A stretch of DNA of 64,000 nt from an uncultured Paracoccaceae bacterium. GTDB taxonomy: Bacteria; Pseudomonadota; Alphaproteobacteria; Rhodobacterales; Rhodobacteraceae. Shown in pieces: positions 14,949-49,645 of this stretch. The stretch covers positions 1-64,000 of the forward strand of contig CAKZOU010000064.1 of assembly GCA_937138255.1 (NCBI GenBank), written 5' to 3'. A program made the translations under genes and the position numbers. Within the stretch, counting starts at the first letter, position 1. Each line of letters starts with the position of its first letter. The notes under the pieces were generated by a model that saw only the letters and a program-made list of their open reading frames with translations, was not told the origin of the DNA and made no database searches.

Positions 14949-15259
14949 AGCTCGTCCTCTTCGTCGGAACTGTCGATGCCAAGCGCCTCGAGGCCAGCTT
15001 CGAGATGGTCGGGCAAATGGGGCGACCCTTTGAGGTATTCGGCGGTCGGCGTCGTCGCCTCGTTTAGTGCGGTCTCGATGGCGTCGGGCAACTCTTCCGG
15101 CTCATAGGTGCCACGGCCGATCCAGAAGATTGCCACAAGGCAGGCCTGCTCTTCGACATTCAATCGCTCGATAAAAGCGTCGAACTCGGCCTCCGCTCGG
15201 TCCAGCTCTCGGGCGAGGATGATAACCTCGGCAACCTTGTCTGCAGTAATATCGAGCAT
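14936..15259 (-). CDS. DUF3775 family small protein
   Basis: Product of 107 aa from the ATG at 15259, preceded by AAAGAGG; the frame remains open far upstream, but this start gives the family length. The sequence is acidic and helical, beginning MLDITADKVAEVIILAREL and containing the signature WIGRGTYEPEELPDAIETA. Proteins of this type are common and short in Alphaproteobacteria; no function is known to me. It diverges from rpoE and shares the 279-bp region that carries the rpoE promoter. Confidence 0.82.
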   Translation of the reverse strand: MLDITADKVAEVIILARELDRAEAEFDAFIERLNVEEQACLVAIFWIGRGTYEPEELPDAIETALNEATTPTAEYLKGSPHLPDHLEAGLEALGIDSSDEEDELYRR

Positions 15260-39071: not shown

Positions 39072-39728
39072 CTAGAACGGCGCCTTGGCGGTAAAGCGCA
39101 CGCCTGCCCCGCCATCGGGATGGCGGAATTGCAGCGTCTCGGAATGCAGCATCATCCGCGGGTAATCGCGTGCTGGGCCCGTTGCATAGAACGGATCGCC
39201 AAGGATCGGGTGGCCGATCTCTTTCATATGGACGCGCAGCTGATGCGAACGCCCCGTTTTGGGATAAAGCCGCACGCGGCTTTCGCCGCCGCCGGTTCGC
39301 ACCACCCGATAATCCGTCAGCGCAGGCTTGCCGTTGACATGATCGACGTGCTGTAGGGGCCGGTTCGGCCAATCGACGATCAGCGGTAGGTCAATCGTGC
39401 CGGTCTTGGTCGTCATCTCGCCCCAGACGCGGGCGACATAGGTTTTTTTGGTATAGCGCTTCTCGAATTGCAGCCCGAGGTGCCGCTGGGCGTGGGGCGT
39501 GAGCGCAAAGACCATGACCCCCGAGGTGTCGCGGTCGAGCCGGTGGACGAGGAGCGCCGTGGGAAATACCGCCTCGATCCGGCTCATCAGACAATCGGCC
39601 AGATGCTCGCCCTTGCCCGGTACGGAAAGAAGCCCCGCCGGTTTGTCGACGATCAGGATCTCGTGGTCCTGATGCAGGATTACCAAAGGATCCTGCGGCG
39701 GGTCATAGCCTTCGAGCGGCCCGGTCAT
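39072..39728 (-). CDS. RluA-family pseudouridine synthase
   Basis: Product of 218 aa from the ATG at 39728, which overlaps the rarD stop codon (ATGA); a longer open frame upstream runs inside rarD in another frame and is not used. Catalytic Asp is in VHRLDRDTSGVMVFAL (~residues 70-85). [40 protein letters not shown] and RMMLHSETLQF are typical. The N-terminal S4 domain is lacking, as in RluA itself, which modifies 23S rRNA U746 and tRNA U32. Confidence 0.93.
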   Translation of the reverse strand: MTGPLEGYDPPQDPLVILHQDHEILIVDKPAGLLSVPGKGEHLADCLMSRIEAVFPTALLVHRLDRDTSGVMVFALTPHAQRHLGLQFEKRYTKKTYVARVWGEMTTKTGTIDLPLIVDWPNRPLQHVDHVNGKPALTDYRVVRTGGGESRVRLYPKTGRSHQLRVHMKEIGHPILGDPFYATGPARDYPRMMLHSETLQFRHPDGGAGVRFTAKAPF

Positions 39729-40624
39729 CTGGTCCGCCGGAAGATCGAATAGAGATAGATCGCGACCGAGGCCCAGATCAGCGGGAAGGCAATCGCCCGC
39801 GCCGCGCCGAAGGGCTCTCCGAAGATGAACACTGCGGTCAGGAAGATCATCGTCGGCGCGATATATTGCAGGATGGCGATGGTCGAAAGCCGCAGGCGCT
39901 TGGCCCCGTTGGCATAGAGCATCAGGGGGCCGGCGGTGACTGCGCCAAGGCCGAGGAGCATCAGCGTGTCGAAGGTTGTCCCGCCGAAATGGCCTTCTCC
40001 CGACAGGGTGAGCTTGGCCAGATACACAAGGGCGAAAGGCAGAAGGATCAGGACTTCCAGCAGGAACCCCTGATTGGGGCCGATGGGCAGCCGCCGCTTG
40101 AGAAGGGCGTAGATCCCCCATGTGAAGGTCATCCCGAGCGCGACCCAAGGCGCCTTGCCTGCCGCGACAGTCAGGACGATCACGCCAGCCGCCGCGACGG
40201 CTATGGCGATCCATTGCAGCCGCTTCAGCTTCTCGCGCAGGATGATTGCGCCGAGCAGAATGCTGAAGAGCGGATTGATGTAATAGCCCAGCGCCGCCTC
40301 GATGGCGTGTCCCGAGCCGATCGACCAGACATAGAGCCCCCAGTTGACCGAAATGAACGCGGCAGGAGCCGCTGCCATCAGGATCAACTTGGGAGAGGTC
40401 AGCGCCGCGCGGATATCCGAGGTGCGGCGCAAGAGGATCAGCACGACGAGCGCGAAAGGCACCGACCAGAGGATGCGGTGCGCCACCACTTCCACCGGCG
40501 AGATATGCCCGACCGCCTTCATATAGAGCGGCAAGAATCCCCAGAGGAAATAGGCCGAGACCGCGAAGGCAAGGCCAGCAGGGGAATCTTCGTGTTCGGA
40601 GGCGCGGGGGGCGGCATCTGTCAT
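39725..40624 (-). CDS. rarD: RarD, EamA/DMT-family permease
   Basis: Product of 299 aa with ten hydrophobic segments arranged as two EamA halves. The N-terminal GLAFAVSAYFLWGFLPLYMKAVG is a RarD hallmark. Chloramphenicol-related drug export was proposed for RarD, but the substrate is unsettled. It is downstream of the FAD/GcvT enzyme gene (44-bp gap) and overlaps the RluA-like gene, so it may end the long minus-strand operon. Confidence 0.92.
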   Translation of the reverse strand: MTDAAPRASEHEDSPAGLAFAVSAYFLWGFLPLYMKAVGHISPVEVVAHRILWSVPFALVVLILLRRTSDIRAALTSPKLILMAAAPAAFISVNWGLYVWSIGSGHAIEAALGYYINPLFSILLGAIILREKLKRLQWIAIAVAAAGVIVLTVAAGKAPWVALGMTFTWGIYALLKRRLPIGPNQGFLLEVLILLPFALVYLAKLTLSGEGHFGGTTFDTLMLLGLGAVTAGPLMLYANGAKRLRLSTIAILQYIAPTMIFLTAVFIFGEPFGAARAIAFPLIWASVAIYLYSIFRRTR

Positions 40625-40668
40625 GATGCCGCCTCCCTGCCTGAAACACCGCCCCGCCGCAAGCGGCG

Positions 40669-43116
40669 TTAGGCCTTGGTCCGCTCGGCGCTGGGATCAT
40701 ACATCGGCTTGAGCGATACCTCCGCCCTGACCCGCGTGCCCATCACATCGACCTCGTAGGTCGAGCCAAGCACATCCGCCGCGCTTTCGCCCGCGCAAGG
40801 AATGTAGGACATACCCATCGCGCCGCCGAGGTGGTGGCCATATGCGCCAGAGGAGATGTAGCTGACGATCTTGCCGTCCCGCAGAACCGGCTCGTTGTGA
40901 TAGAGCAAAGGCTCGGGGTCGGTCAGCCGAAGCTGCACCATCCGTTTCTTGAGGCCCGCTTCCTTCTTCTTCAGCACCGCCTCGCGCCCGATGAAATCGG
41001 CCTTGTTCATGCCCACGGCAAAGCCGAGGCCCGCCTCGAGCACATGGTCTTCCGAGGTGATGTCGTGGCCGAAGTGGCGGAAGGCCTTTTCGATGCGGCA
41101 GCAGTCCATGACATGCATCCCGCAAAGCTTGAGCCCCATGCCCTCGCCCGCCTCGTAGAGTGTCTCGAAGGCGTGGCCCGCCATGTCGGAAGAGACATAG
41201 ATCTCCCAGCCGAGCTCGCCCACATAAGAGACGCGGTGCACACGGGCGAGGCCCATACCAAGCTCGATATTCTGCGCCGTGCCAAAGGGATTGACGGCAT
41301 TCGAGAAATCGTTGGGCGAGACCTTTTGCATCAGATCGCGCGCCTTTGGCCCCATGATGGCCAGCACCGCCTCGCCCGCCGTCACATCGGTGATGACGAC
41401 GTGCTCGTCGCGCAGATGGCGGCGCATCCATGTCTCGTCGGCCAGCCGCGCGATCGCGGGGGTGACGACAAGATAGGCTGTCTCGGAAAGGCGGGTGACG
41501 GTCACATCCGCCTCGATCCCGCCGTTGCGGTTAAGGAACTGGGTATAAACGATCTTGCCGGCCGGCACCGAAACATCCGCTCCACAGATCCGGTTGAGGA
41601 AGCTTTCCGCGTCGCGCCCCTCGACCCGGAGCTTGCCGAATGAGGACATGTCATACATGCCCAATCCGGTGCGGATTGCCTTGTGTTCCTCGGCCACGTT
41701 GTCGAAGAAGTTCTGCCGCCGCCATGAGTAGCGATACTCGCGCTCTTGGCCCTCGCGGGCGTACCAGTTGGCCCGCTCCCAACCGCCCAGTTCGCCAAAG
41801 ACCGCGCCGCGCTCGGCAAGGTGATGGTGGAAGGGCGTGCGCCGCACGCCGCGGGCGGTGGCCTTCTGGCGATAGGGGAAGTGATCGGCATAGAGAAGGC
41901 CGAGGGTCTCTTTCGAGCGTTCGAAGAGATATTTCTTGTTGCCCTGAAACGGCTGCATCCGCGAGATATTCACATCGCCGATGTCGAAGGGCTTTTCGCC
42001 CGTATCCATCCACTGGCTGAGGACCATGCCCGCGCCACCGGCCGACTGGATGCCGATCGAGTTGAAACCGGCGGCGACCCAGACGTTGTCCATCTCGGGC
42101 GCAAGGCCAAGGTGATAGGCATCGTCGGGGGTAAAGCTTTCGGGGCCGTTGAAGAACGTATGGATGCCCGCCGAGCCCAGAAGCGGGAAGCGGTTCACGG
42201 CCTTCTCGAGGATCGGCTCGAAGTGGTCGAAATCCTCGGGCAGTTGGTCAAACTCAAAGCTCTCGGCGATGCCGTTCATGCCCCACGGCTTGGCGTGCGG
42301 CTCGAAGGCGCCCACGAGCATCTTGCCCGCGTCTTCCTTGTAATAGGTGCACTCGTCGGTGACGCGCAGCACCGGCAGTTGCTTGAGCCCCTCGATCGGC
42401 TCGGTCACGATGTAGAAATGCTCGCAGGCATGGAGCGGCACGTTGACGCCCGCCATCCGGCCAACCTCGTGCCCCCACATCCCCGCGCAATTGACGATCA
42501 TCTCGCAAGCGATGTGGCCGGTGGCGCCATCTCCATCCGCCCAATCAACGCCCGTCACACGGCGCCCCTCTTTGGCAATGCCGGTGACCTTGGTGCGCTC
42601 GCGCACAATCGCGCCGCCCATGCGGGCGCCCTTGGCCATCGCCAGCGCGATATTGGCCGGATCGCCCTGGCCGTCGGTCGGCAGCCAAACCCCCGCCTTG
42701 ACCCCGTCGATATTGAGATGCTCGTAGCGGTTCTTGACCTCGGCAGGCGAGATTTCCTCGACCGGAACGCCAAAGGCCCGCGCCATGGCGGCGCTGCGGA
42801 ACAGTTCTTCCTTGCGGTCCTCGGTCAGCGCGACCGAGATCGAGCCGACCTGCCGCATCCCCGTGGCCACGCCCGTTTCCGCCTCGAGCCCGCGGTAAAG
42901 CTCGGCCGAATAGCGGGCGAGGCGGGTCATGTTGGCGGTGGCGCGCAACTGGCCTATCAGGCCCGCGGCGTGCCATGTGGTGCCGCTGGTCAGTTGCTTG
43001 CGCTCCAGCAGGACAACGTCTTTCCAGCCGAGTTTGGTCAGGTGATAGGCCACCGAACAGCCGATAACGCCGCCACCGATGATGACAACGCGGGCGTGAG
43101 TGGGAAGGTCGCTCAT
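40669..43116 (-). CDS. FAD-dependent oxidoreductase/GcvT fusion (dimethylglycine or sarcosine dehydrogenase-like), copy 1
   Basis: Product of 815 aa. Residues ~1-390 are a DAO-type FAD domain, with dinucleotide motif [17 protein letters not shown] (~9-25) and [10 protein letters not shown] (~44-53), where the His matches the covalent-FAD His of dimethylglycine dehydrogenase. Residues ~430-810 form the GcvT/aminomethyltransferase part, with [14 protein letters not shown] and ASGAYG-like C-terminal sequence. Such enzymes oxidise N-methyl groups and pass the one-carbon unit to tetrahydrofolate. A paralogue of identical length lies two genes upstream. It overlaps the MDR dehydrogenase gene (ATGA). 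The exact methylamine substrate is not shown by the sequence. Confidence 0.9.
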
Positions 43117-44180
43117 TGGGGGATCTCCGGGGGTATGAGAACGAGTTTTCCAGGGTATGTCTTGCTCATGAAATCGGCCTGTGCAGTGCCGATCTCGCGG
43201 AGCGGATAGGTTTTGGAAACCAGCGGGCGCACTTGGCCCGCGTTGATCATTAAGACCAGCGCCGCAAAGACCTCGGGCGGCTGATATGTGCAGCCATGCA
43301 AGGTTATGTCGCGCAAGTAGATGCGCCGAAGATCGGCCTCGACCATGGGACCGGCAATCGCACCAGAAACGGCGTAGTGACCGCCGGGCCTGAGCGAGTC
43401 GATCAACCCCATCCAGCCGGGGCCGCCAACCACGTCGATCACGATATCGAAGCTGTCTTTCGGCAAGGGTTCACCCCGCGCGATTGTGGCTTCGGCTCCA
43501 GCTTTGCCAACGGCGCCCGACTTGGTAGCTGCGCAGATCCCTGTGACTGTAGCGCCGAGAGCTTTGGCAAGCGCGACCGCTGCTAACCCAACACCACCCG
43601 AGGCTCCGGTAATCAGTATCCTTGACCCCGCGCTTGCGCCGGCACGGGACAAGAGGTTGGCGGCGGTCCCGAAGGCGCAGGGCATCGCGGCGAGTTCGAT
43701 ATCGCTCAGGGGCGAGGTGGTGACGTCATAGAGCTGATCCACCGACACGCAGCAAAACTGGGCGAATGCGCCGTCATACTCAGACCCGATCGCAACAAAT
43801 CCAAAGGGATTATCAGCGGTCGGGCGGGCCTGATTGGTCGGACAGATCACACGCGCTCCGAGAGCGGGACCAACGGTATCTTCACCCAGCGCGACAACAT
43901 GGCCGCAGAGGTCCGCGCCCTGAATGCGCGGAAACTCCAACGCACCTGCCCATCCACCGCTTTCCGCTGTCGCGCCTTCTTCTGTCGGGCCGCTGACGTC
44001 AGGAGAATACCACCCGGTTCGAGTGTTGATATCCGTATTGTTCACCCCAGCCGCAGCGACGCGGATGAGAGCCTCACCGCACTTGGGGCGCGGAACCGCG
44101 ATCGTGTCGGACCAGACGAGCGCCTCCGGGCCGCCGTGGGCGACCAGAAGTATTCCACTCATCTGCTCCGGCAGAGTCAT
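43113..44180 (-). CDS. zinc-type/MDR family alcohol dehydrogenase or quinone reductase
   Basis: Product of 355 aa. The catalytic half has [24 protein letters not shown] and a [17 protein letters not shown] segment; the Rossmann half has [25 protein letters not shown] (~residues 185-210). The typical structural-zinc cysteines are missing, so a quinone-reductase-like MDR is more likely than a classical alcohol dehydrogenase. Codon usage looks slightly less GC-rich than its neighbours. It is sandwiched by ATGA overlaps between the homocysteine methyltransferase and the copy-1 FAD/GcvT gene, so it belongs to the same pathway, function unknown. Confidence 0.88.
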
Positions 44181-45076
44181 GCTTCGATCTCGTGTCCGGC
44201 CTCGCGCAGGCGGCGGGCGACTTCGGTGATATGGGCGGGGCCAACCTCGCAGCAGCCGCCGACGATGGTCGCGCCCTGATTGACCCAGCCCATGACGAAG
44301 TTGGCGTAGGTCTCGGGGCCGAGGTCGCGGCGGGGGCTCAGGGCGTCGACGGTCGGGGACTCCTTGAGGAAATCCTTGGTGATCATCGTAAAGCCGTTGG
44401 CATAGGCCCCGAAGGGCAGGCCCGCGGTCTTGATGACATCAAGCGCCGCTTCCATCGCCTCGGGGGCCGAGCAATTCGCCAGAAGCGCATCCGCGCCGCC
44501 CTCCTTGGCTATGCCGACAACCTCGGCCACAGGTTCGCCCGAGCGCAGGCGCGCGCCGTCTTCGTCATCTACCGTCACTGAAAGCCAGACGGGTTTGCCC
44601 GCCGTTTTGGCGCCTTCGAGGATCGAGCGGGCATGGGCCACGGAGGCGACCGTTTCGCACAAGAGAAAGTCGACGTGCGGCGCGAGCTTCCGCGCCACCT
44701 CGGCATATTTCGCCACGGCCTCGTCATGCGGCGGATGCACGTCGGGGCGATAGCTGGCCACCAAGGGGCCGATCGAGCCCGCGATCTTGCCATGTCCTGC
44801 CGCCTTGCGCGCGGCCTTGGCCTCTTCCACCGCCGCCTCGTGCAGCTCTTCAAACTTGCCGTCGATGCCGGTTTTCACCAGCCGGTCGTGGTGGATGCAG
44901 TAGGTGTTGGTCGTGGCAATGCCCGAGCCTGCGCGGAAATAATCCTCATGCACGGCCTCGACCATGCCGGGGTGATCCATCATCACCTGCGTCGACCAAA
45001 GCGGCGTGGGCCTGTCGCCCGCGCGGTGGATAAGCTCTTGCCCCATGCCACCATCGAGAAGTGTGATCTTGGTCAT
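44177..45076 (-). CDS. betaine/homocysteine S-methyltransferase family protein
   Basis: Product of 299 aa from the ATG at 45076 (MTKITLLDGGMGQEL). The zinc site of the family is complete: first Cys in ALLANCSAPEAME (~205) and the double-Cys motif VGGCCEVGPAHI (~272-283). Such enzymes move a methyl group from betaine or S-methylmethionine to homocysteine, giving methionine. The gene overlaps both neighbours by ATGA and lies between two dimethylglycine-dehydrogenase-like genes, which fits betaine as methyl donor and dimethylglycine as product. Confidence 0.9.
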   Translation of the reverse strand: MTKITLLDGGMGQELIHRAGDRPTPLWSTQVMMDHPGMVEAVHEDYFRAGSGIATTNTYCIHHDRLVKTGIDGKFEELHEAAVEEAKAARKAAGHGKIAGSIGPLVASYRPDVHPPHDEAVAKYAEVARKLAPHVDFLLCETVASVAHARSILEGAKTAGKPVWLSVTVDDEDGARLRSGEPVAEVVGIAKEGGADALLANCSAPEAMEAALDVIKTAGLPFGAYANGFTMITKDFLKESPTVDALSPRRDLGPETYANFVMGWVNQGATIVGGCCEVGPAHITEVARRLREAGHEIEA

Positions 45077-47520
45077 GCGCGGATCCTTTCGTTCGTGGCA
45101 TCCCACAACGGCTGGTCTTCCTGAACCACCGCGCGGCAGCGTTCGCCATAGATTTCAACTTCGATCTCGGTGCCGGGCACGGCAAGCTCGGTCCGCAGCA
45201 TCCCGAAGGCGATCGAAGCATTCACCCGATAGCCCCAGCCGCCGCTCGTCGTCTCGCCGACGATCTTACCATCGTGCCAGAGGGTCGACATATAGGGCGC
45301 GTCGGCCTCGCCCGCGTCAACAACGAGGGTGACAAAGCGTTTCTTGCTGCCCCGCTGCTTCTCGGCCAAAAGCGCCGACTTGCCGGGGAAATCCTGCGGC
45401 TTGTCGAACTTGACGAAGCGGTCGAGCCCACCTTCCAGAAGGCTGTAGTCGGTCGAAAGATCGCCTTTCCAAGCGCGATAGCCTTTCTCGAGGCGGAGCG
45501 AGTTCAGCGCCCACATCCCGAAGGGCTTGGCACCAGCAGCCAAGATCGCCTCATAGATCGCGGGCTGATCGGCATTGGCGCAATGCACCTCCCAGCCAAG
45601 CTCGCCAGCAAAGCTGACACGAACGAGTGTGCAGGGCTTGCCAGCAACCATCGCCTTTTGATGGCTCAGCCAAGGCAGGGCGAGATCGGCGTCAGATCCG
45701 ATCTCTTCAAAAAGGGCCCGCGCCCGTGGCCCGGTGACGATCATCGTTCCAACCTCGCGGGTGTGATCGGTCAGGGTCAGGCCCGCAGGGAGCGCCTTTT
45801 GCAGAAGCTCGAAATCATGCCATTGCGCCGCGCCAGCGGTAATGAGGGTAAACTCGTCCTCGCCATGCCGCATGACCGACATCTCGGTCAGGATGCGGCC
45901 ACGGCTGTCGGGGAAATAGGCAAGGTTGATCCGCCCCTCTTTGGGGAGCGCCCCGGCAATCATCCCGCGCAGCCATTCGGCCGCACCAGCGCCCGATAGG
46001 TCAAACCGGCTAAAGCCCGGCAGATCGAGAACGCCAACGCCATCGCGCACCGCCTCGCATTCCTCGCGGATGCGCTCGGCCCAAGGGCCCGCGCGGTTCC
46101 ACGTCTGGGTGCTTTCCTCGCTCAGATCGTCGCCCGGCTTGGCAAACCAGTTGGCCCGCTCCCACCCGTTATAGGCGCCCATGACGCCGCCGAGGTCTTT
46201 GACCTTGGCATGGACCGGCGAGTGCTTGCGGTCGGCGCCAGCCGGCCAGCGGTGCCACGGGAAGTGCATGGCGTATTCGTGGCCATAAATCTCCATCCCC
46301 CGTTCAACGCAATAGTCGTGGTCGGTATAGTCGGTGAACCGGCGCGGATCGCAGGACCACATATCCCACTCGGTCTGGCCTTCGGTGATCCACTCGGCCA
46401 AGACCTTGCCAGCCCCGCCGCCCTGGGCGATGCCGAAGGTAAAGACGCAGGCCTCGAACGCATTGGGCACACCCGGCATCGGGCCGATCAGGGGATTGCC
46501 ATCGGGGGCATAGGGGATTGGACCGTTGATAACCCGCGCAACGCCAGCCTCGGCCAGAAGCGGAACCCGCGCCATGGCGTCTTCGATATAGTATTCCAGA
46601 CGGTCAAGATCGTCGGGATAAAGCTGGAACGAGAAATCATCCGGCATCGGATCGGTGGGCGTTGCCCAATGGGCGCGGCAGTTGCGCTCGTAGGGGCCGA
46701 GGTTGAAGCCGTTCTTTTCCTGACGGAGGTAGTAGGAGGTATCCACATCGCGCAGAAGCGGGAGCTTCTTGCCCGACCCTTCCGACCATTTCTTGATCTC
46801 GGGCACCTCGTCGAAAACCATATACTGGTGGCTCATCACCATCATCGGCACGGTGCGCCCGCCATAGGGTTTGAACCATTCGCCCACCCGCTGGGCATAA
46901 TAGCCCGCCGCGTTGACCACATATTCACAGCGGATATCGCCCTTCTCGGTATGGACGATCCATTCGCCATTCTCGCGGCTGACGCCGGTCGCAGGCGTAA
47001 AGCGCAGGATCGTCGCGCCCAGATCGCGTGCACCCTTGGCAAGCGCTTGGGTCAACTGCGCGGGGTCGATATCGCCATCTGCGGGATCATAGAGCGCGCC
47101 CTTGAGGTCGTGCGTCTCGATGAAGGGATATTTGGCCCTGATCTCGTCGGGCGAGAGAATGTCGATCTCCATCCCCTGATAGAGGCCCATACCCTTGGCG
47201 CGCTGAAATTCCTGCATCCGCTCTTTCGAATGGGCGAGGCGGATCGAGCCGGTGACGTGGTAGTTCATCGGGTAATCGACGGCCTCTCCCAGCCCGCGAT
47301 AGAGCTCGGTCGAATAGCGCTGCATATTCATCAGCGACCACGAGGTCGAAAAGGTCGGGACGTTGCCGGCGGCGTGCCATGTGCTGCCTGCGGTCAGTTC
47401 GTTCTTCTCGAGGAGAACACAGTCGCTCCACCCTGCCTTGGCAAGGTGATAGAGCGCCGAGACACCGACGACCCCGCCGCCAATGATCACAACCCGCGCT
47501 GTTGTCGGAAAATCTGCCAT
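45073..47520 (-). CDS. FAD-dependent oxidoreductase/GcvT fusion (dimethylglycine or sarcosine dehydrogenase-like), copy 2
   Basis: Product of 815 aa, same length and architecture as copy 1. FAD motif [21 protein letters not shown] (~9-29), covalent-FAD-type His in AGSTWHAAGNVPTFS (~46), FAD domain to ~residue 390, then GcvT domain with SFAGELGWEVHCAN (~655) and a C-terminal EVEIYGERCRAVV. Identity with copy 1 is partial, so they are divergent paralogues, likely with different N-methyl substrates (for example dimethylglycine versus sarcosine). It is followed by the homocysteine methyltransferase (overlap) and preceded by the GFA gene (9-bp gap). Confidence 0.9.
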   Translation of the reverse strand: MADFPTTARVVIIGGGVVGVSALYHLAKAGWSDCVLLEKNELTAGSTWHAAGNVPTFSTSWSLMNMQRYSTELYRGLGEAVDYPMNYHVTGSIRLAHSKERMQEFQRAKGMGLYQGMEIDILSPDEIRAKYPFIETHDLKGALYDPADGDIDPAQLTQALAKGARDLGATILRFTPATGVSRENGEWIVHTEKGDIRCEYVVNAAGYYAQRVGEWFKPYGGRTVPMMVMSHQYMVFDEVPEIKKWSEGSGKKLPLLRDVDTSYYLRQEKNGFNLGPYERNCRAHWATPTDPMPDDFSFQLYPDDLDRLEYYIEDAMARVPLLAEAGVARVINGPIPYAPDGNPLIGPMPGVPNAFEACVFTFGIAQGGGAGKVLAEWITEGQTEWDMWSCDPRRFTDYTDHDYCVERGMEIYGHEYAMHFPWHRWPAGADRKHSPVHAKVKDLGGVMGAYNGWERANWFAKPGDDLSEESTQTWNRAGPWAERIREECEAVRDGVGVLDLPGFSRFDLSGAGAAEWLRGMIAGALPKEGRINLAYFPDSRGRILTEMSVMRHGEDEFTLITAGAAQWHDFELLQKALPAGLTLTDHTREVGTMIVTGPRARALFEEIGSDADLALPWLSHQKAMVAGKPCTLVRVSFAGELGWEVHCANADQPAIYEAILAAGAKPFGMWALNSLRLEKGYRAWKGDLSTDYSLLEGGLDRFVKFDKPQDFPGKSALLAEKQRGSKKRFVTLVVDAGEADAPYMSTLWHDGKIVGETTSGGWGYRVNASIAFGMLRTELAVPGTEIEVEIYGERCRAVVQEDQPLWDATNERIRA

Positions 47521-47529
47521 GTCTGTCTC

Positions 47530-47907
47530 CTAGTCCTGTCTTTGCGGAAGCCCGTCCGCGAGTTCGTAATAATCGCCCTTGAAGCCCACGAAGATGTGGC
47601 CCGCGAGCATGGTTCCGGTCGGCCCGTCGATCGAGCCGGGGGCCACTTCGATGATGTCATGGCCCAGCGGCTTGAAGAAAAGCGAGGCGCCGCATTCCTT
47701 GCAAAAGCCGCGCTCGGCCCACTCCGACGAGCGATACCACTTGAGGCCGCGATCCTCGGTGAAGCGGAAATCGGCGTTGGCAACCGGAAAGGCCGACCAG
47801 TAGTGCCCGCCCGACTTGCGGCAGGCGGTGCAATGGCAGGCGCGATAGCTTTCCGGGATCTTGTCGACCTCGAACGCCACGGCCCCGCAAAGGCAGCTTC
47901 CCTTCAT
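47530..47907 (-). CDS. GFA (glutathione-dependent formaldehyde-activating-like) family protein
   Basis: Product of 125 aa from the ATG at 47907 (MKGSCLCGAVAFEVD). Zinc-binding cysteines: C5-x-C7 (SCLCGAV), C-x-C-x2-C in ACHCTACRKSGG (~29-34) and FCKECGASLFF (~72-75). The family includes Gfa, which was thought to condense formaldehyde with glutathione, but many members have unknown function. Placement just before a demethylase that may release formaldehyde makes a detoxification role attractive. The start lies one base after the lysE stop codon. Confidence 0.9.
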   Translation of the reverse strand: MKGSCLCGAVAFEVDKIPESYRACHCTACRKSGGHYWSAFPVANADFRFTEDRGLKWYRSSEWAERGFCKECGASLFFKPLGHDIIEVAPGSIDGPTGTMLAGHIFVGFKGDYYELADGLPQRQD

Positions 47908-47908
47908 C

Positions 47909-48532
47909 TCAGACCCTCCCTGATGCGAAATTGGCGGAGCCGAGCAGGGCTCCGTAGATGACGAAACAGATCGCCATGCCGCGCCGCACCCAGGTATGGC
48001 CGACAGCGCCCAGCGCCGCGCGGCCAAGAAGCGCGCCAAGCGCGGTGTAGGTCGCGTAGCTGAGGCTCGTGAGCGTCAGCGCGGTTGGCACGATCACCCA
48101 CATCTGCTGGCCGATCGGCACGTCGGGCTGAACGAACTGGCTGAAGGCGGCGAGATAGCCTGCAACGCTCTTGGGGTTGATCGTCGCGATGGCGAGAGCG
48201 CGGCCATAGATCGAATGGGCGTGGCTGGCTCCCTGTTTGAGGGGCTTTGCGGCGTTGATCCAGCCGCGAATGCCAAGCCAGACCAGCACAGCCGCGCCGA
48301 GATACTGGAGGATCGAGAAGGCAAAGGGCGAAGCCTTGATGAGCGCGGTGATGCCCAAGGCCGAAAGGCCAAGAAACAGGCTCGCCTGCGTCAGTATCGC
48401 CAAAACGCCCCAAAGCGAACGGCCAAAGCCGTGGGTCATGCCGTTGTTGATGCAATTGACGGCATTGGGGCCCGGCGTGGTCACGAAGACCAGCCAGAAA
48501 AGCGCGAATATGGTCCAGGCCTCAAAGCTCAT
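47909..48532 (-). CDS. LysE-family amino-acid exporter
   Basis: Product of 207 aa with about six membrane segments. The RhtB/LysE signature is visible at the N-terminus as FVTTPGPNAVNCINNGMTHG (~residues 17-36), then LGITALIKASPFAFSILQYLGAAVLVWLGIRGW. Members export basic amino acids, homoserine, threonine or related compounds. Its stop lies just before the GFA start and its own start is 9 bp after the XRE regulator stop, so the three are co-transcribed. An exporter for glycine or another product is possible. Confidence 0.9.
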   Translation of the reverse strand: MSFEAWTIFALFWLVFVTTPGPNAVNCINNGMTHGFGRSLWGVLAILTQASLFLGLSALGITALIKASPFAFSILQYLGAAVLVWLGIRGWINAAKPLKQGASHAHSIYGRALAIATINPKSVAGYLAAFSQFVQPDVPIGQQMWVIVPTALTLTSLSYATYTALGALLGRAALGAVGHTWVRRGMAICFVIYGALLGSANFASGRV

Positions 48533-48541
48533 GGCCAGCCC

Positions 48542-49114
48542 CTAATAGACCGGCGGCGCGATCACCCAGATCGCGACGGCAGGTTCGTCATAGGGGTTTT
48601 CCCAGCGGTGCGGCTCACCCCGGATGCGAAAGCTGTCGCCGGGGCCAACAGTGAAGCGGGCGCCGCCGATTTCGAGGTCGAGCCTGCCCGAGACGACAAA
48701 GGCCACTTCTTGGGTCGGGCGGGTCACGGTTTCGCCGATGCTTGAATGGGGCGCGAAGGTGGAATGGACCATCTCGAAATCGTCGGTCAGGTCGGGAGAC
48801 AACAACTCTTCAACAAGCCCGCCATCGCCTGAGCCGATCGACCGCCGCGCGCCTTTGCGGACGATCAGTCCCGCCTCCTCGGCGGGTGCGCCGGGCTGGC
48901 CGAAAAGGATCGAGATCGGAACCTTGAAGAACCGCGCCATGCGGCGCAGGTCGTCGACCGAAGGGGCGGAGAGATCGCGCTCGACCTGACTGATCCAGCC
49001 GACCGAGCGGCCAAGATAGTCGGCCAGCGCCTGAAGCGTGACCCCGCGCGCCTTGCGCAGGGCGCGGATATCCGCCCCCAGAGTGCGCGCTTTGGTTGGA
49101 GAATCGTGTTTCAT
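48542..49114 (-). CDS. XRE-family regulator with C-terminal cupin
   Basis: Product of 190 aa. The helix-turn-helix lies at residues ~13-70, with VTLQALADYLGRSVGWISQVE (recognition helix GRSVGWIS) and RMARFFKVPISILFG. A C-terminal cupin_2 barrel (~105-190) has EVAFVVSGRLDLEIGGARFTVGPGDSFRIRGEPHRWENP. Such regulators sense small carboxylates or amines through the cupin and often autoregulate. It is first in the long minus-strand run and is preceded by four copies of a GAATTTCACG-type half-site. Confidence 0.93.
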   Translation of the reverse strand: MKHDSPTKARTLGADIRALRKARGVTLQALADYLGRSVGWISQVERDLSAPSVDDLRRMARFFKVPISILFGQPGAPAEEAGLIVRKGARRSIGSGDGGLVEELLSPDLTDDFEMVHSTFAPHSSIGETVTRPTQEVAFVVSGRLDLEIGGARFTVGPGDSFRIRGEPHRWENPYDEPAVAIWVIAPPVY

Positions 49115-49120
49115 GGCTCG

Positions 49121-49187
49121 CGTGAAAAAACCGGTTCGAATTTCACGATGCCATGCGGCCGTGAAATTTCAAAGCGGAATTTCACGG
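49121..49187 (-). promoter_or_regulatory. cluster of GAATTTCACG half-sites in the XRE operon promoter
   Basis: Three copies of one motif alternate in orientation: GAATTTCACG at 49138-49147, the inverted form CGTGAAATTTC at 49160-49170, and GAATTTCACG at 49177-49186. A fourth partial copy CGTGAAA is at 49121-49127. All fall in the 78 bp between the XRE regulator start and the next gene, so they are the likely operator and promoter zone. Confidence 0.6.
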
Positions 49188-49192
49188 AGTGT

Positions 49193-49645
49193 TCAGCGCC
49201 CGAAGACCTCGCGCAGAATCCGGCTCAGGCCCTTGTCATCCGCCTCGTCAAAGGCGTCTGGCTGATCGCTGTCGATATCGAAAACGCCCAAGAGCGAGCC
49301 ATCCTTGCGCCAGACCGGCAAGACGATTTCCGAGCGGGTCGAGCTGGAACAAGCGATATGGCCGGGGAAAGCCTCTACATCCGGCACAAGCTGGGTCTCG
49401 CCCGTCCGCGCCACCGCGCCGCAAACGCCGCGGGAAAAGGGGATCACAAGGCAGCCATGACCGCCCTGATAAGGGCCGATCTTGAGGAGCTCGGGCGCGA
49501 CAACGCGATAGAAGCCGGTCCAGTCGAAGCGGTTGTCGGCGTTGTGAACCTCGCAGACAACCGTCGCCATGAGGGCAACCTCGTCGGTCTCGCCCTCGGT
49601 CAGGGCGGCGATGGCCTTGGAAAGCTCGGTGTAATCGACCCGCAT
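49193..49645 (-). CDS. msrC: free methionine-R-sulfoxide reductase (GAF domain)
   Basis: Product of 150 aa, a single GAF domain. Conserved residues of fRMsr are present: GGHGCLVIPFSRGVCGAVARTG (~residues 80-101) and HIACSSSTRSEIVLPV (~115-130), carrying the three cysteines that act in catalysis and the STRSEI substrate loop. It reduces free methionine-R-sulfoxide with thioredoxin. One base separates its ATG from the thiolase stop, so the two are coupled, although the functions seem unrelated. Confidence 0.94.
   Translation of the reverse strand: MRVDYTELSKAIAALTEGETDEVALMATVVCEVHNADNRFDWTGFYRVVAPELLKIGPYQGGHGCLVIPFSRGVCGAVARTGETQLVPDVEAFPGHIACSSSTRSEIVLPVWRKDGSLLGVFDIDSDQPDAFDEADDKGLSRILREVFGR

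Follow-up and report, generated by a model that had tools for sequence, protein, structure and literature searches.

What is the gene cluster between positions 39,072 and 49,114 of this DNA for, and which methylated amine, if any, does it break down? The stretch analysed (the window) comprises 64,000 nucleotides from an uncultured Paracoccaceae bacterium (NCBI GenBank assembly GCA_937138255.1, contig CAKZOU010000064.1), and the cluster runs along its minus strand from a gene for an XRE-cupin regulator down to one for an RluA pseudouridine synthase. Between them lie genes for two 815-residue FAD/GcvT enzymes, called FAD2 and FAD1 here, together with a LysE-family exporter, a small GFA-type protein, a homocysteine S-methyltransferase (HMT), an MDR oxidoreductase and a RarD-like membrane protein. 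This one-strand gene list, drawn up in an earlier note on the sequence, was confirmed by assignment of open reading frames (ORFs) and domains. We put at roughly 0.72 the probability that the cluster provides the oxidative half of a pathway that removes N-methyl groups stepwise; this figure applies to the type of pathway and not to its substrate. In such a pathway a quaternary amine would first be demethylated by a corrinoid-dependent enzyme of the MttB family, after which FAD2 would act oxidatively on the dimethyl product and FAD1 on the monomethyl one. Both would hand their electrons to ETF and their one-carbon unit to tetrahydrofolate (THF), giving 5,10-methylene-THF, and a primary amino acid would be the end product. 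The XRE-cupin protein would control the operon at a twin palindromic operator, and we infer that HMT, MDR, GFA and LysE are lineage-variable accessories.

FAD2 and FAD1 resemble dimethylglycine demethylases

Both 815-residue proteins exceeded the Pfam cut-offs for DAO, FAO_M, GCV_T and GCV_T_C, and the best PDB match of each was mitochondrial DMGDH (580 bits for FAD2 and 450 bits for FAD1); the corresponding matches to DMGO were 310 and 425 bits. Mitochondrial DMGDH and Arthrobacter DMGO have the same domain order as the window enzymes and share their key residues. The histidine that binds FAD covalently (His91 in human DMGDH; PMC5082570) is kept in both within a WHAAG motif, as His49 in FAD2. 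The His225/Tyr259 dyad of DMGO, named in the title of a work cited in PMC5082570, corresponds to His231/Tyr264 in FAD2 and has its equivalents in FAD1. Identity to FAD2 is 36–37% for DMGDH and 29% for the Arthrobacter dimethylglycine oxidase, and Arg68 of FAD2 occupies the position of human DMGDH His109. Judged by these features, FAD2 and FAD1 are very probably demethylases of the DMGDH/DMGO type that remove methyl groups stepwise from an N-methylated amino acid.

The window's assembly (2.85 Mb in 79 contigs) encodes five further full-length FAD/GcvT paralogs. The substrate of FAD2 cannot be read from similarity, because the FAD-site and dyad residues are kept in all seven paralogs of the genome and FAD2 is not the one nearest to DMGDH. 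Picking FAD2 as the dimethylglycine dehydrogenase of the organism on this basis fails, as the paralogs score alike.

The pair lies in a cluster conserved among relatives

The conservation of the cluster was assessed in 100 loci, consisting of the best 80 named loci of at least 593 relatives and 20 from unnamed relatives, some of which may be near-duplicates. The relatives were found with an alignment of 20 FAD2 sequences, and the nearest named loci are mostly from Rhodobacteraceae. Neighbors were counted up to 9 kb from FAD2 if encoded on its strand, and several loci end at contig edges. FAD1 was present in 88 of the loci, XRE in 61, HMT in 46, GFA in 34, LysE in 30, MTTB (the MttB family) in 27 and MDR in 15, where the LysE and GFA counts take in distant family members (LysE down to 25–30% identity). 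When the count was limited to the 75 loci offering 2.5 kb or more of upstream flank and 6 kb or more of downstream flank, FAD1 was found in 72. The entire gene order is repeated in another genome of the genus (L118). Because this order recurs and FAD1 accompanies FAD2 so often, the cluster is more than a chance arrangement, and the proposal that a coupled operon for methylated amines encodes two FAD/GcvT demethylases of the THF type acting in succession is supported by both the domains and the neighborhood.

Two layouts can be distinguished. The first is FAD2-FAD1-MTTB, with a same-strand GFA or LysE gene nearby in 0 of 25 cases within the well-flanked loci. The second, to which the window belongs, is thiolase-GAF-XRE-LysE-GFA-FAD2-HMT-(MDR)-(GlxA)-FAD1-RarD-RluA. 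The earlier note had regarded the inclusion of LysE, GFA and MDR as unusual; LysE, GFA, HMT and MDR are patchily distributed among the loci yet keep recurring, and the accessory set is therefore recurrent. Its suggestion that GFA may capture the one-carbon unit, taken here as a formaldehyde trap, fails against the canonical Gfa model, which the window protein misses by a wide margin (Table 1).

Presence of the pair tracks one MttB subfamily

Members of MttB subfamily IIa (MTTB-IIa), defined by at least 50% identity to the gene in L125, were compared with FAD2 orthologs (at least 68% identity, some partial) in 37 family genomes, the window's and 36 relatives. FAD2 orthologs occur in 25 of them, and MTTB-IIa was present in 22 of these 25 genomes and in 1 of the 12 without FAD2 (Fisher p 4.6e-6, kinship ignored). 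The counts were 18/21 and 1/12 when four congeners of the window genome were removed, and the genomes with FAD2 and no MTTB-IIa are G029, G032 and G033. Absence of subfamily IIa from FAD2-free genomes rests on PF06253 scores plus one gene compared directly: the MTTB proteins of these genomes score at least 610 bits and the IIa genes 339–387 bits, with G034 as the exception. Class I MTTB genes are present in 36/37 genomes irrespective of FAD2. The order FAD2-FAD1-MTTB or a close variant of it was seen in the MTTB-bearing loci, in some of them as one operon.

The window genome carries its MTTB-IIa gene on another contig (C28:37721-39211), adjoining a class I aminotransferase whose relatives (45–55% identity) lie between FAD2 and FAD1 in seven loci (L062, L075, L079, L080, L083, L094 and L120). 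The first methyl group is probably removed by a vitamin B12 (corrinoid) enzyme of the MttB family encoded outside the window cluster. In this organism that enzyme would probably be the product of the subfamily-IIa gene on C28 (G000:C28), acting with a separate corrinoid protein. Further quaternary-amine modules are hinted at by five other loci (L177, L184, L185, L191 and L192), each with a divergently oriented pair made up of an MTTB gene (38–43% identity to IIa) and an FAD/GcvT gene.

A palindromic operator precedes the XRE-cupin gene

Two perfect palindromes of the form GTGAAA-N13-TTTCAC, 39 bp apart, lie upstream of the XRE gene, and the genome contains no other exact match. This operator is new here. 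The consensus across loci is RTGAAA-N13-TTTCAY, often doubled. In the 61 loci with XRE, the 180 bases upstream of the matched XRE start contained an exact copy in 43, one with at most one mismatch in 59 and one with at most two in 60. The remaining locus (L106) has an exact copy about 210 bases upstream of its XRE start, hence all 61 loci have one. A second copy is common, and the 39-bp distance recurs in 24 of 40 site pairs. At two mismatches the pattern was found in 0.5% of 2903 stretches from the same loci and 0.9% of 6100 shuffles, and other spacings from 8 to 19 gave 0 or 1 of 61 loci at one mismatch. For the window alone, the two-mismatch pattern occurred 3 times against 1.4 expected, no excess over chance; what stands out is the exact pair together with its conservation. 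A scan for sigma-70 promoters and terminators gave nothing above chance level.

Genome-wide, the relaxed pattern has four matches: two at the window operon, one on contig C1 and one on contig C65 (G000:C65:40604-40628). The C1 copy stands directly before a beta-hydroxyacid dehydrogenase gene (L199 11602-12513), beside a gene that resembles glycerate kinase by eye, and the arrangement holds in 4/4 genomes of the genus that were searched. Extending the regulon to this dehydrogenase beyond the genus failed, since the site was found in 0/11 other genomes with the homolog. Homologs of the dehydrogenase are present in 10 of the 100 FAD2 loci, all ten with MTTB (nine at 73% identity or more, one at 46%). 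Elsewhere, the relaxed operator also precedes MTTB and falls at the predicted start of the FAD1 ORF in L114, and in L066 and L111 the operator stands before FAD2 with no XRE gene detected. A one-mismatch operator-like site in the window genome (G000:C47:60821-60845) lies about 12 bp before an FAD/GcvT paralog.

Gene context and the likely substrate

To the 100 loci we added 12 plasmid loci, fetched from 15 matches at 60–80% identity, for a total of 112. In six of the 12, genes for ETF beta, ETF alpha, FolD and PurU lie beside the pair, with ETF-QO in five of those six. FolD and PurU were found by the same probes in none of the other 100 loci. The context in this minority of loci supports ETF as the electron acceptor and a route for the one-carbon unit through methylene-THF to formate.

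For the window pair, the most likely substrates are betaine-derived dimethylglycine and sarcosine, which we rate at about even odds. Carnitine or betaine genes were found in 5 of the 112 loci (L052, L222, L223, L076 and L101). They include carnitine 3-dehydrogenase in L052, L222 and L223 (over the cut-off in the two scanned) and a Rieske oxygenase nearest to GbcA in L076, L101, L222 and L223 (257 bits against a cut-off of 670 in the one scanned). A homolog of the GlxA-type regulator, nearest to GbdR (124 bits against 480 in the one scanned), is near FAD2 in 9/100 loci. The accessible text of PMC12478193, which carries no locus tags, reports that proteins for "predicted" dimethylglycine and sarcosine demethylation rise on betaine.

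A tentative reading of the same pathway type, ranked next, is that the pair acts on N-methylated omega-amino acids. It would take taurine betaine, dimethyltaurine and N-methyltaurine down to taurine, or their beta-alanine counterparts down to beta-alanine, and a transaminase would then deaminate the product. The taurine context in 6 of the 112 loci (L073, L109, L114, L125, L130 and L221) consists of Xsc, which passed the equivalog cut-off in all four copies scanned and was absent from control loci that total 0.76 Mb and come largely from the same genomes. Five of the six also have a TauA-like gene. L130 and L221 have TauABC-like transporter genes ahead of FAD2 on its strand, immediately ahead in L130, where xsc and pta are convergent. 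In L073 the genes form a one-strand cluster in the order aminotransferase-MocR-XRE-FAD2-MTTB-FAD1-Xsc-acetate kinase. An AptA-type aminotransferase follows directly after FAD1 in five loci on Rhizobiaceae plasmids (L220, L224, L227, L228 and L229), with partial matches in L224 and L228 and the AptA cut-off passed in the one scanned. The class I aminotransferase beside MTTB-IIa in the window genome fits this reading as well. However, taurine genes are near only 6 of the 112 loci, and carnitine or betaine genes near another five. The substrate-binding proteins score 147–172 bits, below the taurine cut-off of 304, and in L073 the MocR protein passes the PdxR cut-off and the aminotransferase passes that of no model, so that "Tpa" and "TauR" are labels given by eye.

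Since FAD2 and FAD1 occur in carnitine/betaine, taurine and AptA contexts, the pair has the look of a cassette serving more than one pathway; the finding of the first two kinds of context is new here. It is conceivable, although we lean the other way, that FAD2-FAD1 and MttB IIa form a portable cassette for N-methylated omega-amino acids, above all taurine betaine and the N-methylated taurines, instead of or besides the glycine series. For the window pair, the betaine series proposed by the earlier note is possible, and N-methylated taurine or beta-alanine is a serious alternative. We favor dimethylglycine and sarcosine somewhat, place taurine or beta-alanine derivatives next, and leave the rest to other amines. 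The literature searched, with subscription papers thinly covered, held nothing relevant on bacterial taurine betaine catabolism, which is no proof of absence. As for homarine catabolism, PMC4744692 names homarine solely in its reference list.

Several observations weigh against a pathway that begins with MTTB-IIa and runs through the glycine series. Human DMGDH is 37–39% identical to three other FAD/GcvT paralogs of the window genome, and 36–37% to FAD2. Betaine use in Rhodobacteraceae has been assigned by homology to Bhmt1, DgcA and SoxBDAG (PMC7574528), and SoxBA-like genes are seemingly present, by eye, on contig C54 of the window genome. The probes that found ETF in the plasmid loci found it in none of the other 100, and ETF-QO in one. 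The pair is linked to taurine genes in six loci and to an AptA-type aminotransferase in five. With regard to the first step, in 73 of the 100 loci no MTTB lies within 9 kb of FAD2 on its strand, the genome-wide association carries no correction for relatedness, MTTB-IIa shares about 28% identity with the single class I MTTB it was compared with, and the stretch of C28 with MTTB-IIa has no copy of the operator at 0–1 mismatch.

HMT is an improbable first step

The best PDB match of HMT is Escherichia coli MmuM, with which it has the donor-site Cys-Glu-Thr in common; its nearest family model is likewise MmuM (NF007020), although the score is below the cut-off (Table 1). The Bhmt model (NF005718) scored 72–78 bits against a cut-off of 338. 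The 46 cluster HMTs, that of the window among them, retain BHMT's Asp26, Trp44 and Glu159 positions and all three zinc cysteines, apart from one exception at Cys217. Neither Tyr77 nor Tyr160, the betaine-site tyrosines of human-type Bhmt, is found in any of the 46, and the window HMT has Cys and Thr there. HMT is most likely an MmuM-type sulfonium:homocysteine methyltransferase that would aid methionine/S-adenosylmethionine balance.

A proposal we consider improbable is that HMT replaces MttB as a cobalamin-free first step for another quaternary amine or for a sulfonium compound. Within the well-flanked loci, HMT was present in 3/25 MTTB-bearing clusters and in 31/50 others (p 5e-5). However, paired comparison on the FAD2 tree, which allows for relatedness, gave a median p of 0.625, and MTTB-IIa is present as well in 15 of the 19 family genomes that carry an HMT of this kind. 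As an in-operon replacement for MttB, HMT was set aside when the raw association was lost with phylogenetic pairing.

Published genetics bear on betaine as the substrate of HMT. In Ruegeria pomeroyi DSS-3, SPO3400 and SPO3396 have been called dimethylglycine and sarcosine dehydrogenases (PMC4744692), and SPO3398 between them is listed as a homocysteine S-methyltransferase (PMC4809877). SPO3396-SPO3400 fits the order FAD2-MDR-HMT-GlxA-FAD1 of three Ruegeria loci (L064, L065 and L071, the first two with a cupin gene after FAD2) and appears, by gene order and annotation, to be an orthologous cluster. The window differs in that its HMT gene comes ahead of MDR and its two demethylase genes have no GlxA-type regulator gene between them. 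In Phaeobacter inhibens and R. pomeroyi, demethylation of betaine is the work of MtgB, MtgC and MtgD, the Bhmt-type gene of that system being mtgE, and R. pomeroyi mtgC and mtgD deletion mutants fail to grow on betaine even when methionine is supplied (PMC12478193). R. pomeroyi apparently has HMT and yet needs MtgC and MtgD for betaine, and therefore the corrinoid route is still needed.

The window genome has its own candidates for some of these functions, on contigs other than that of the cluster. Its five MTTB genes recall the MtgBCD system, although the MTTB that tracks FAD2 is of a divergent subfamily. The Bhmt family model finds a 606-bit, MtgE-like gene on contig C51, near genes for a DUF1638 protein and a B12-binding protein whose nearest model is MtgC (186 bits against a cut-off of 370). 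PF02965 (MetH) has no match in the genome, and the C51 layout resembles the split methionine synthase MtgCDE of Phaeobacter inhibens and R. pomeroyi (PMC12478193). The earlier note had HMT convert betaine to dimethylglycine, with the two FAD/GcvT enzymes finishing the task, and despite the position of HMT between the demethylase genes with ATGA overlaps, its occurrence near FAD2 in 46/100 loci, its retained BHMT residues and the in vitro formation of methionine from betaine and dimethylsulfoniopropionate by a different, MtgE-type enzyme, P. inhibens Bmt (PMC12366255), this is the least probable of the readings, the identification of HMT as Bhmt being rejected on model score, residues and published genetics.

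Features of the locus

Coordinates are collected in Table 1. The genes had been described as mostly overlapping, which is half right. Four of the eight junctions are 4-nt ATGA overlaps (FAD2-HMT, HMT-MDR, MDR-FAD1 and RarD-RluA), and the other four are gaps of 9 nt (XRE-LysE), 1 nt (LysE-GFA), 9 nt (GFA-FAD2) and 44 nt (FAD1-RarD). Spacing is tight throughout.

Table 1. Genes and operator copies of the window cluster, with window positions; scores in bits.
Feature	Position	Strand	Basis
GAF-domain protein, between thiolase and operators	49193-49645	-	PF13185/PF01590; free-Met-sulfoxide-reductase-like by eye
Operator copy 2, 39 bp from copy 1	49161-49185
Operator copy 1, GTGAAA-N13-TTTCAC	49122-49146
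XRE-cupin regulator	48542-49114	-	HTH_31/HTH_3 and Cupin_2; nearest NCBIfam model PuuR, 54 vs cut-off 211
LysE-family exporter	47909-48532	-	PF01810; nearest NCBIfam model RhtB-type, 89 vs cut-off 209
GFA/CENP-V-type small protein, not canonical Gfa	47530-47907	-	PF04828; Gfa model (NF003829) 19 vs cut-off 249; 8ajq_A E 2.4e-9
FAD2, 815-aa DMGDH-like FAD/GcvT demethylase, proposed tertiary-to-secondary amine step	45073-47520	-	DAO+FAO_M+GCV_T+GCV_T_C
HMT, homocysteine S-methyltransferase nearest MmuM, not Bhmt	44177-45076	-	PF02574; MmuM model 145 vs cut-off 215
MDR oxidoreductase, ADH_N/ADH_zinc_N family	43113-44180	-	catalytic-zinc Cys position is Asn by eye
FAD1, 815-aa FAD/GcvT demethylase, second subgroup, proposed secondary-to-primary amine step	40669-43116	-	DAO+FAO_M+GCV_T+GCV_T_C
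RarD/EamA-like membrane protein, neighbor of uncertain relevance	39725-40624	-	by eye from translation
RluA pseudouridine synthase (218 aa)	39072-39728	-	PF00849 over cut-off; PRK10158 240 vs 286 and rluA_subfam 190.6 vs 192.7, both just below

The RluA gene, mechanically extended, accounts for the 542-aa ORF at the left edge (40700-39072); the gene is a conserved neighbor that probably has no functional link to demethylation. The GAF protein is conserved between thiolase and XRE; homologs of it lie up to 9 kb from FAD2 in 26 of the 100 loci, and those of RarD in 24. Farther away in the window, ARAGORN called a 93-nt tRNA-Asp with an odd anticodon (atc, minus strand, 15165-15257), which may be spurious.

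Implications

The HMT result removes a tempting and poorly supported first step from the pathway. The operator offers a direct handle for mapping the regulon and finding the inducer. If the pair does belong to a portable cassette for omega-amino acids, the roseobacter "dimethylglycine/sarcosine dehydrogenase" operon would be a new sulfonate-osmolyte pathway under XRE-cupin control at RTGAAA-N13-TTTCAY. Genes for dimethylglycine and sarcosine demethylation serve as markers of betaine turnover in the ocean (PMC12478193). If the pair tracks one MttB subfamily and sits in taurine clusters of several lineages, part of that marker signal may report another osmolyte.

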